This document shows positions 32,653 to 49,270 of a DNA stretch of 49,393 bases, piece by piece. Below the pieces are notes generated by a model. That model was not told where the DNA came from and searched no databases. It worked only from the letters and a program-made list of their open reading frames with translations. The translations under genes were made by a program, and so were the position numbers. Source of the DNA: Pelotomaculum isophthalicicum JI. Its GTDB lineage: Bacteria; Bacillota; Desulfotomaculia; Desulfotomaculales; Pelotomaculaceae. The first letter of the stretch is position 1, and each line of letters starts with the position of its first letter. The stretch is taken from positions 1 through 49,393 of the forward strand of contig NZ_JAKOAV010000026.1 of assembly GCF_029478095.1 (NCBI RefSeq), in the 5' to 3' direction.

Positions 32653-32748
32653 GTGGTGGGTGGTAGGTGGTTGGGGATAGAAGGAATTCGCCGGAGGCGA
32701 ATTCCAACAACTAACCTAACGACCAACAACCAACGACCAACGACCAAT
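32653..32748 (+). repeat. Heptamer-repeat hairpin upstream of panC
   Basis: Three 7-bp units of GTGGTNG type (32653-32673) are followed by a perfect 10-bp palindrome, GGAATTCGCC-GGA-GGCGAATTCC (32683-32705). Then come 7-bp units of AACGACC type (32706-32743, one unit 5 bp). The right units are partly complementary to the left ones, so the whole segment could fold into one long stem in the panC leader. The panC ribosome-binding site lies just after it. Confidence 0.75.
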
Positions 32749-40590: not shown

Positions 40591-40657
40591 CTTTATCAGT
40601 AATAAATGTTGACGTTTTATGGGCAAAAGATTAGAATATCTTACGGGAGTGGTTATT

Positions 40658-41629
40658 TTGAAAAGGGCTATTCTCCGGCTTCTAAAAGAGTTCCGGCCCG
40701 AATATGTTTCCGGTGAAGACATATGTAAAAAATTCAATGTAACCAGGACCGCGGTCTGGAAGCATATACAGGCCTTACGGGAGGATGGGTATGAAATTGA
40801 AGCCCGTCCGCGCGCGGGCTATTCACTAGTTAGTGTTCCGGACAGGCTTTATGCCGAGGAGATTCTGGACGGGCTGAACAGTAAGTTTTTCGGTCATGAG
40901 GTTTATTATTATGACAGTGTTTCTTCTACGAATGATGTGGCTAAGGAATTAGCCTTACAAGGTGCGCGTGACGGCTCGCTTGTTGTTGCCGAGGAGCAGA
41001 CCGGGGGTAAAGGCCGGTTGGGTAGGGAATGGTATTCGCCTAAGTATAAGGATATTAAATTTTCCTTGCTCCTCTATCCGCCCGTCAATCCTTCCGAGGC
41101 ATCTCAAGTGACCATGGTGACGGCGGTAGCCATGGCTCTGGCGGTTAGAAAAAAGACAGGGGTGCCTGCGGGCATCAAGTGGCCGAACGATCTGCTGGTG
41201 GAGGGCAGGAAGATCTGTGGCATCCTCACTGAAATGAGCGCTGAATTGGATAAAATTAATTATCTGGTGGTAGGCGCCGGCCTGAATGTCAACCAGGAGC
41301 TTGCTGATTTTCCTGAAGAAGTGCGTGATATTGCTACCTCTCTGAAGGTGGAAAAGGGGGTTGAGCTAGCCCGGGTCAGTTTGCTGCAGGCAATACTGGA
41401 GGAGTATGAACAATGGTATATGCTTTGGCTGGAACAGGGCTTTTCAGTAATTCTAGCCAAATGGAAAGAGTTGTCTGTTTCATTGCATTGTCCGGTACGT
41501 ATCCATACCTTGAATAAATCCTGGGAGGGTTGGGCGGAAGATGTGGACGCTGACGGAGCGCTGTTGTTGCGTCTCCCGGACGGCGGGCTGCAGCGGCTGA
41601 TAGCAGGCGACGTCTCATTGCGGGTGTAA
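40658..41629 (+). CDS. birA: Biotin protein ligase / biotin operon repressor
   Basis: This 323-aa bifunctional protein has an N-terminal winged helix (about 1-60; VTRTAVWKHIQALREDGYEIE) and a ligase domain with GGKGRLGR (116-123), which binds biotinyl-AMP, and KWPNDLL. It attaches biotin to carboxylase subunits and, when loaded with biotinyl-AMP, represses biotin genes. TTG 40658 after GGGAGTGG gives the usual start; ATG 40619 would add 13 residues. bioY follows, with a candidate BirA operator in between. Confidence 0.93.
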   Translation: MKRAILRLLKEFRPEYVSGEDICKKFNVTRTAVWKHIQALREDGYEIEARPRAGYSLVSVPDRLYAEEILDGLNSKFFGHEVYYYDSVSSTNDVAKELALQGARDGSLVVAEEQTGGKGRLGREWYSPKYKDIKFSLLLYPPVNPSEASQVTMVTAVAMALAVRKKTGVPAGIKWPNDLLVEGRKICGILTEMSAELDKINYLVVGAGLNVNQELADFPEEVRDIATSLKVEKGVELARVSLLQAILEEYEQWYMLWLEQGFSVILAKWKELSVSLHCPVRIHTLNKSWEGWAEDVDADGALLLRLPDGGLQRLIAGDVSLRV

Positions 41630-41674: not shown

Positions 41675-41703
41675 CATTGTGGCGGGCGGGATAGTGTTTA
41701 AGA

Positions 41704-41832
41704 AGTCAGGAGTCAGTAGTCAGGAGTCAGGAGTCAGAAGACAAGAGACAAGGAGTTAGGAATCAAGGAATTAGAATAAAAGGATGGTTAGTTTGTTGTT
41801 TTATATTATTCTGAATTCTGACTCCTGAATAC
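41704..41832. repeat. Heptamer-repeat array with inverted copy, upstream of bioY
   Basis: About eleven consecutive 7-bp units start at 41704 with AGTCAGG/AGTCAGT and decay stepwise (AGACAAG twice, then GAGTTAG and more divergent units) to about 41780. An inverted copy at 41807-41832 pairs perfectly over 13 bp (41727-41739 with 41816-41828). The element lies between the BirA operator candidate and bioY. Confidence 0.8.
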
Positions 41833-41858
41833 TTATTTTACAGGGGGAGGTTGATTTT

Positions 41859-42431
41859 ATGTCCAGGTTTTCAGCGCGTGATATTACTATGACCGCGGTT
41901 TTTGCCGCAATGGCGGTAGTTGCCGCCATGCTGGTGCGCTACGCCGGTTCTGTTGTGCCTTTTAGTCTTATGCCTTTTGTGGTTATGCTTGCGGGTGGCT
42001 TGTTAGGACCACGCCTGGGGGCGCTGAGTATTGTTGTATATATTTTGCTGGGTTTGGTAGGTTTACCGGTATTTGCCACCGCTCCCTTTGGCGGGCCGTC
42101 ATATGTTTTTCAACCGACTTTTGGCTTCCTGCTTGGTTTTATCGGAAGCGCATATGTTATCGGCGCTCTGCTAAAAAATCCGGAAAAGAGAAGTTACGCG
42201 CGCTATTTTATTGCTATGCTTGCCGGAATAATAGTTTATAATGTGGTTGGATTGCCTTATCTTTATGCTATTTTGACTTTTTATCTGGGTAAAACTTATT
42301 CTGTGATGCAAGTTTTGAAAATCGGTTTCATCCCATTCATTACCCTTGACCTGGTTAAAGCGGCAGTGGCCACGGTACTGGCCAGGGCGGTCTACCGGAG
42401 GTTGGACGCATACGGTGTCGACCGGACATGA
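41859..42431 (+). CDS. bioY: Biotin transporter substrate-binding protein BioY
   Basis: This 190-aa membrane protein is the S-component of an ECF biotin transporter. It has about six hydrophobic helices, the conserved VPFSLMPFVVMLAGGLLGPRLG and GLVGLPVFA, and the PTFGFLLGF stretch. Energising ATPases are not in the window and are presumably shared. ATG 41859 follows GGGGGAGG. It stands alone behind a repeat array and a likely BirA site, consistent with biotin repression. Confidence 0.93.
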   Translation: MSRFSARDITMTAVFAAMAVVAAMLVRYAGSVVPFSLMPFVVMLAGGLLGPRLGALSIVVYILLGLVGLPVFATAPFGGPSYVFQPTFGFLLGFIGSAYVIGALLKNPEKRSYARYFIAMLAGIIVYNVVGLPYLYAILTFYLGKTYSVMQVLKIGFIPFITLDLVKAAVATVLARAVYRRLDAYGVDRT

Positions 42432-44677: not shown

Positions 44678-44788
44678 GCTTTGTTAATATTTTAGTGTAC
44701 ACAAATATGTGCACATAATTATCTGACTCATGAAGAATAATATACTTACAGGTTAGCGCCAAGCCATATGAACAAAAACTTTATTAGT

Positions 44789-44862
44789 ACTCAGGAGTCA
44801 GAATGGGAGAATGGTTTATTGTCTTGAAATATTCTGACTCCTGACTCCTGAATTCTGAATAC
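44789..44862. repeat. Heptamer-repeat inverted element upstream of the HTH gene
   Basis: TCAGGAGTCAGAAT (44791-44804) pairs perfectly over 14 bp with 44831-44844. The right arm continues with a second 7-bp unit and TTCTGAATAC, as in the bioY element. The element ends about 9 nt before the ribosome-binding site of the HTH gene. Confidence 0.75.
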
Positions 44863-48774: not shown

Positions 48775-48777
48775 TAG

Positions 48778-48864
48778 AATCGGGGACATTCCTCCGGCCC
48801 CAAAGATAGGCCCGTTAGGGAGGTGTGTCCCCTTTCCTAAGCCATGAACTCTTCACCCTCGGGC
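48778..48864 (-). repeat. REP-like palindromic element, copy 2
   Basis: Inverted copy of the element at 21933-22020, with about eight differences including one 1-bp indel. The GGGGACA / TGTCCCC arms are intact. It starts 4 nt after the lysS stop codon, so it may also serve as the 3' hairpin of the lysS transcript. Confidence 0.75.
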
Positions 48865-48978
48865 GAAGGAGTTTGCTAGCTAAAAATGATGGCGAGATGT
48901 TGACATGGTTATCTCTTTATGATAATATAATCACCCGGGTATTTTTCCAAATGATTAATTTCCCGGCAATAAAAAAGT

Positions 48979-49070: not shown

Positions 49071-49092
49071 GTGGATGGATGGAAATCACAGT

Positions 49093-49155
49093 AGTCAGTA
49101 GTCAGTAGTCAGAATAAATTGAGGTACGAATTTATTCGCGCATCAATAAGACTAC
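49093..49155. repeat. Heptamer repeats and hairpin in the rRNA leader
   Basis: Three 7-bp units AGTCAGT/AGTCAGA (49093-49113) run into a 9-bp inverted repeat (49112-49120 with 49129-49137). GACTAC follows (49150-49155), complementary to the unit junction GTAGTC. It is the same repeat type as the bioY and HTH-gene elements, here lying between the boxA-like site and mature 16S. Confidence 0.7.
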
Positions 49156-49270
49156 CGGCAACAGACAACCGACAACTGAAAACACATGACTCTCGTCGAA
49201 GCGAAAGCTAGAAGCGAGCAGTACATTCCGAAAGAAGAAAAAGAGCCAAGAAAACAAACTATTCATATAT

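Follow-up and report, generated by a model that had tools for sequence, protein, structure and literature searches.

The STRRs of cyanobacteria are dispersed intergenic tandem heptamers. The TAACTGA heptamers of Beggiatoaceae, Cyanobacteria and Bacteroidetes are direct repeats for which the accessible part of the published account gives no mechanism, and S23 or IVP is not mentioned in its main text as far as that is accessible (MacGregor 2015, PMC4679880). The GGGAATC repeats of Xanthomonas, with about four units and 70–75 convergent pairs per genome, are described as generally unconnected to mobile elements and, together with the GGGGA(T/C)T repeats of Nostoc, have been interpreted as G-quadruplex motifs (PMC4692102, accessible portion). 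Heptamers also occur in the 23S IVS of Coxiella burnetii, which RNase III cuts and in which three tandem GACAGAT units, varying in number by strain, lie before an S23 ORF whose protein is seemingly not made in vivo (Warrier et al. 2016, PMC4990558). The portion of that paper available to us does not generalise its heptamers. IVP genes themselves have been noted in two further settings, 18 of them in cas loci, where they are reported as an associated function (PMC3936711), and others as ORFs within insertions that interrupt the 16S and 23S genes of CPR bacteria (PMC11270868), both in the excerpts available. A general account of heptamer-armed IVP elements was not found in the open-access literature, and within the accessible parts of these papers the only printed precedent that we found is the presence of heptamers in one 23S IVS.

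The repeat considered here lies upstream of bioY in the window, by which we mean the whole stretch of 49,393 nucleotides that was analysed. Its parts and neighbours are as follows.

40619–41629, plus strand: birA-type biotin protein ligase gene, upstream (Pfam BPL_LplA_LipB, HTH_11, BPL_C)
41704–41765, plus strand: 5' arm, a degenerate AGTCAGG heptamer array that decays toward the core (TRF and array scan)
41774–41813, plus strand: core, GAATAAAAGGATGGTTAG...TTCTGA, similar by eye to the core of other copies in the genome; probable remnant of a deleted IVP reading frame
41808–41833, minus strand: 3' arm, an inverted heptamer array that matches the 5' arm exactly over 13 bp
41859–42431, plus strand: bioY, downstream (Pfam BioY, 136.9 bits)

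TRF reports a period of 7, 8.7 copies, 76% matches and the consensus AGTCAGG at 41704–41765, and an array scanner pairs the array at 41701–41752 with the inverted arm at 41808–41833, the longest exact inverted match between the arms being TCAGGAGTCAGAA (13 bp). The preliminary description had reported about eleven heptamers of this consensus facing an inverted copy with a perfect 13-bp match; the array, its consensus and the match are borne out, while the count was generous, as about ten units are seen by eye and some of the inner ones are 8-mers. With 7-nt units and no spacers the array is not a CRISPR, as that description had also maintained. The repeat has the complementary, stem-forming ends of an IVS; it sits between birA and bioY, outside rRNA genes, and no PF05635 ORF is present between its arms. 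We nevertheless file it as a derivative of an IVP element, because sibling copies in the genome retain parts of the ORF. A decayed counterpart occupies the same place in the sister species, so the copy is old, and we consider it very probably a worn, ORF-less relic of such an element.

Three other sites in the window had been said to repeat this design. Two of them have the same heptamer, and the third has another one.

44787–44862, plus strand: second copy, short form, with a well-kept core AATGGTTTATTGTCTTGAAATATTCTGA; an altered copy lies at the same place in the sister species
49089–49178, plus strand: third copy, lacking in the sister species; a 16S rRNA gene (match from 49270) follows downstream
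32653–32747, plus strand: fourth element of like design, built of a different, TGGTTGG-type heptamer and enclosing a short palindrome

Ten period-7 arrays occur in the window, whereas 20 locally shuffled versions of it average 1.6 and reach 5 at most. Two inverted array pairs (at 41701 and 32653) were detected, and none in any of the shuffled versions; 44787 and 49089 do not reach the scanner's threshold for inverted pairs. Across the whole genome (3.61 Mb in 93 contigs) the exact 13-mer AGTCAGGAGTCAG occurs 65+64 times, against 0+0 for the reversed pattern, and the 100 of these 129 places that were listed form at least 51 sites. Only one of 37 sites tested lies inside an ORF of at least 100 aa, though such ORFs cover 0.64 of those loci. 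The copies read share a plan consisting of an AGTCAG-type array, the core GAATGAGAGAAyGGTTTATcGTCTTgAAATATTCTGA and an inverted array, and they adjoin unrelated genes. The family is thus one of dispersed intergenic tandem heptamers, like the STRRs, as had been proposed, and the genome-wide search, for which a lack of further copies would have told against the proposal, has multiplied them. The 13-mer was found in nine of 41 genomes (the window's genome and 40 relatives). Rfam, searched over the window, returned only a pan motif (RF01749, 30728–30850, 44.4 bits) and SSU rRNA, and no known RNA family at the repeats.

The origin of the core becomes apparent from longer copies. A PF05635 search of the genome found three places, all partial and each between heptamer arrays. 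One of them (L064) retains half of the IVP ORF (Pfam 61 bits), and the 12-mer GGTTTATCGTCT falls within this ORF; at another (L066) the junction GAATAAGAGAACGGTTTATCGTCT equals the short core at 22 of 24 nt and is followed by further ORF remains. Because this junction and this 12-mer tie the core to the ORF, the short copies look like products of internal deletion, in which the start of the ORF would have been fused to its VYRL codons. In addition, a longer core (L004) reads MREAAKTFEDLLVWQKAHLFVLAV and resembles an IVP start, a piece of 26 residues for which Pfam gave no match. An intact relative with the same heptamers is present on plasmid pNsp_a of Nostoc sp. ATCC 53789 (L272), with 36 of 54 residues identical to L064, which bears out the kinship with cyanobacterial heptamer repeats that had been suggested at the outset. 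Judged by their sequences, the short copies are a family of ORF-less, MITE-like derivatives of the IVP element. Like MITEs, they are numerous, arm-bounded deletion derivatives of a coding element; unlike MITEs, their arms are tandem arrays and no transposase was identified, the coding partner encoding only IVP between its arms. Accordingly, the preliminary description was right about a dispersed, mostly intergenic heptamer family; it missed that these repeats form the arms of an element with a gene of its own, and that the core between them is the probable fused remains of an IVP (S23) reading frame.

A complete IVP element is about 0.4–0.5 kb long and has one PF05635 four-helix-bundle (S23) gene between two usually inverted arms, which are tandem arrays with a period of 7 nt (in some elements 8 or 9); five is the commonest number of units, and AG is commonly fixed in each unit. 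It is found in many bacterial phyla, and the tree of IVP proteins bears 20 NCBI phylum names. Among the 41 genomes, PF05635 was found in 16, at 32 places, and most full-length IVP genes in them (flanks read, matches listed) are bracketed by inverted arrays, the unit differing per element; four of four related loci tested with Rfam lie in 23S (LSU) rRNA genes and have periodic arms. Counts of period 7, period 8 and complementarity come from 114 loci (the best 80 of 590 GTDB candidates and 34 from viral contigs, near-identical viral rows included). Period 7 was best (score at least 10) upstream at 75 and downstream at 68 of these loci; for 539 control ORFs from the same loci the corresponding numbers are 41 and 39, and none of the shuffled upstream flanks showed it. 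Period 8 was best at 10 and 12. Of 79 own pairs of arms, 68 were complementary (score at least 14), whereas only 33 were among 399 mismatched pairs. Ten genomes reached via these loci contain 30 IVP loci, 26 with a 7- or 8-nt arm; 10 of the 30 are the loci that led to the genomes, and 16 of the 20 new ones have such an arm. In a phylum sample around a cyanobacterium, PF05635 was found in 74 of 146 genomes, and 23 of 25 loci analysed, four contig-edge loci being excluded, have a 7- or 8-nt arm.

The unit sequence itself varies widely, there being 60 distinct heptamers among 72 period-7 upstream arms. The elements of one genome mostly have different units (by eye), and a host enzyme with a fixed heptamer template was ruled out for this reason. 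Clustering at 95% identity left 161 elements, with period 7 in 118, period 8 in 25, period 9 in one, another period in three and none in 14; at 60% identity the 97 elements divide into 76, 11, 0, 2 and 8 respectively. The 147 armed elements at 95% comprise 126 with inverted, 13 with direct and eight with weak arms (74, nine and six at 60%), and four of the 147 have other best periods (5, 6, 10) or the lone 9. The elements with no arm above threshold, 14 of 161 and 8 of 97, count against generality. About ten loci are counted twice in the arm scan and in the AG-register and AG-shuffle analyses, which the clustered counts avoid. From the arm scan through to the clustered counts we excluded Avd-type and partial matches among the 32 PF05635 places, L064–L066, L082, L083, the plasmid loci and L317 (contig edge), and L316 was left out of the AG-register, AG-shuffle and clustered counts. 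The S, N and E of the IVP motif (S-x3-N-x2-E) are invariant, an invariance partly built in because the GTDB scan pattern required those letters.

In comparison with the described systems, the Coxiella IVS, in the accessible account, likewise has an S23 ORF between complementary ends and tandem heptamers; unlike 23S IVSs, most loci here are outside rRNA, and the window copies have no ORF. The TAACTGA repeats, as far as their account is accessible, are like those here dispersed intergenic tandem heptamers in many genomes, with presence and absence among relatives, and one IVP arm (L159) has TCAGTTA units. The Xanthomonas GGGAATC repeats, from the part of their description available, are also heptamers and often form convergent pairs. 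PF05635 resembles Avd (PMC10053308, in part), the related four-helix bundle that is accessory to DGRs, and one locus (L086) scores 132 bits with bAvd and 40 bits with IVP. By eye, three Avd-type loci lack the S-x3-N-x2-E motif of IVPs. Two of three such loci have a short upstream heptamer run, so we dropped the notion that Avd loci are free of heptamers, and none of the three has a matching downstream arm (L087 left out). Our literature search found no useful paper on Avd as a pentamer.

The arms have a regularity that goes beyond their period. Where both score, the period is equal in 96 of 101 elements (80 with 7, 15 with 8 and one with 9; 95% clusters). Arm length peaks at 30–32 nt for period 7 (56 of 199 arms, mode 31), at 35 nt for period 8 (5 of 41) and at 40 nt for period 9 (2 of 2). 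Because arm length grows with the period, what is held is the number of units and not the length of the stem, an observation that speaks against RNase III simply requiring a certain length. The longest exact dinucleotide run at the element's period has a mode of five, seen for period 7 in 50 of 118 upstream and 54 of 118 downstream arms, for period 8 in 11 of 25 on either side, and in both arms of the period-9 element (95% clusters); at 60% the five-unit runs number 25 (up) and 31 (down) of 76 for period 7 and six and four of 11 for period 8. Runs of four and six are also frequent, and a few extend to as many as 24 units, five being the mode and no rule. AG runs alone never exceed three in shuffled flanks. 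Where an AG register exists (82 elements), A and G show a conservation of 0.98–0.99 within the array and the remaining positions one of 0.82–0.93, and five AG boxes are commonest (38 of 82, some loci being counted twice).

The solved IVP structures 2GSC, which is Xanthomonas XCC0516, and 2RLD have five chains each, and the title of the 2GSC paper names five four-helix bundles. A plausible model is that an IVP homopentamer reads the arms, one unit per subunit, on single-stranded RNA or DNA; whether five units are read by the pentamer we consider evenly balanced. An analogy, and an analogy only, is provided by TRAP, an 11-subunit ring that binds repeated KAG triplets, in that there would be as many repeated boxes bearing AG as there are subunits; to our knowledge its fold is unrelated to that of IVP. 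Period 8 clusters on the IVP protein tree, with seven changes against a shuffled mean of 14.4 and minimum of 11 (200 shuffles), which is no proof that the protein sets the period, because related elements inherit the period with the protein.

Comparisons of filled and empty sites bear on mobility. At one intergenic site of Nostoc plasmids the AGTCAG element is present in L272, L275 and L276, the site is empty in L269, L277, L278, L279 and L280, and L281 has other sequence; at a second plasmid site another IVP element is present in L269 and missing from the other eight loci, with variable spacers. The nrdB–nrdA gap is filled in Nostoc edaphicum and empty in Calothrix NIES-4105, where the empty site has about a dozen bases that are missing from the filled one. 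Between the window's genome and its sister species, whose main blocks are 83–92% identical, three inserts are missing from the sister, namely the insert of about 90 bp in the 16S leader (window 49089–49178), a 163-bp stretch and a 224-bp stretch, and a fourth, with an ORF remnant, measures 203 bp against 18 bp. The 163-bp case may be a deletion scar, because the empty sequence itself resembles a heptamer, and these pairs are not polarised as insertion or precise deletion. Other sites, the copy upstream of bioY among them, are common to the two genomes or have decayed in one of them or in both, and among the 12 junctions listed some have no connection with heptamers. No consistent target duplication was seen at the filled and empty sites read; one TTCTA resembles the arm end and is hence ambiguous. 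Two Calothrix copies (H2 and H3) lie within a longer shared segment and give no boundaries, and a pattern search for 23S empty sites returned none in 41 genomes, the pattern probably being too strict. A presence/absence comparison in relatives had been suggested, in which a lack of empty sites would have suggested that the likeness of the four loci is chance; empty sites do occur in relatives, and we regard it as highly likely that IVP elements move as units.

We propose that the copy upstream of bioY derives from an IVP element whose arms are read by the pentamer, the complex promoting insertion, and put the probability of this reading as a whole at about 0.65. The pentamer–arm complex would promote insertion at new sites and act in trans for ORF-less copies. 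When transcribed, the inverted arms would pair to form a long hairpin cleavable by RNase III, and cutting of this hairpin would allow insertions in rRNA or mRNA leaders to be tolerated. That IVP itself drives mobility is the more tentative part, to which we give somewhat less than an even chance, and the seeming absence of the Coxiella S23 protein in vivo, in the accessible account, counts against the proposal. With similar reserve we suggest that there is a pan-bacterial class of mobile DNA in which a pentameric four-helix-bundle ring reads five evenly spaced boxes per arm (7, 8 or 9 nt, nearly free in sequence) and drives or licenses movement, the 23S IVSs, the IVP genes of cas operons and many heptamer repeats being one family in varied states of decay. 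If so, the purpose of the S23/IVP protein of rRNA IVSs and the origin of dispersed heptamer repeats become testable, with one 7–9 nt unit per pentamer subunit as the biochemical rule predicted, and several curiosities until now described apart are joined. Caution would also be due where a gene for a ‘four helix bundle protein’ adjoins cas, ribonucleotide reductase or BREX genes, as it may be an insertion and not a functional partner.

The best rival, somewhat doubtful and yet a serious contender, is that IVP elements are passengers moved by a TIR transposase, a reverse transcriptase or repair synthesis, with IVP binding or protecting hairpin RNA or adding nothing. We know of no catalytic domain in PF05635. 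The homology of IVP to DGR Avd, the partner of a reverse transcriptase, would suit this alternative, as would the large number of ORF-less copies in a genome whose three PF05635 places found are all partial. In one genome (G169), 10 of 16 fetched IVP copies start with the same larger terminal sequence, so IVP may there ride in another element. Against passengers stand the Nostoc, nrd and sister-species inserts, which start and stop at the arms themselves with no outer element, and the pairing of arms and ORF in many phyla, with the unit sequence free and the unit number held.

A cis-regulatory or RNA-processing function, for which the host would retain the copies as hairpins, is improbable. 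The copies are mostly intergenic and often just 5' of a start codon, the copy upstream of bioY persists in the sister species, and its predicted RNA fold is strong (41701–41835, −42.2 against a shuffled mean of −21.5, sd 3.7); however, copies are present in some and absent from other sister genomes and plasmids, shared ones decay, and they contain ORF remnants beside unrelated neighbour genes.

A local origin of arrays and hairpins by replication slippage and template switching, with no mobile element, is very unlikely: certain arrays vary and are long, with as much as 166 nt in the scan, and units degenerate within the array, but slippage alone is contradicted by the core and ORF remnants common to many sites, as well as by the same heptamer accompanying an intact ORF in another phylum, the filled and empty sites, and 129 copies of one 13-mer with none reversed. 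Equally remote are REP/REPIN-like elements mobilised by a Y1 (RAYT) transposase, which we rejected, as the preliminary description had, since for all that the copies are short, dispersed, hairpin-forming and intergenic, their cores are probable IVP ORF remains and the heptamer pattern is missing from all four loci, of about 3.3 kb each, that were fetched around the PF01797 places of the genome.

Several further observations were made on the way. Around the 224-bp insert (L251, contig C5 of the window's genome) two elements stand in tandem, and AAGGTGTTGATA comes after each of them, as though flank had been copied along. The larger repeated element of G169 (L348, L349, L351–L355, L357–L359) starts with TAACTGACGTTACGCA and carries IVP genes in many copies, its terminal sequence recurring in inverted form at the opposite end in one or more copies. 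In plasmids of Anabaena sp. 90 (L236) and Pseudanabaena galeata (L268), IVP genes lie between cas6 and cas4 with heptamer arrays on both sides, which in Pseudanabaena share one orientation. The IVP element at L338 has a 9-nt period in both arms, of 40 nt each. Within several heptamer elements of the window's genome (L059, L062, L066) there is a short hairpin-like stretch (GATGAAGCGAAGCTTCAT or similar). At about 48776–48880 of the window, after lysS, lies a different interspersed repeat, GGGGACATTCCTCCGGCCCC...GTGTGTCCCC, missing from that place in the sister species, which has similar sequence elsewhere. Finally, the BREX-1 gene pglX hosts in both species an IVP element whose arms are of the AGTGGGC type and whose IVP ORF is partial (about 1383–1723 in L065 and L085, contigs C7 of the window's genome and C26 of the sister), and the reading frame of pglX is open throughout the element.
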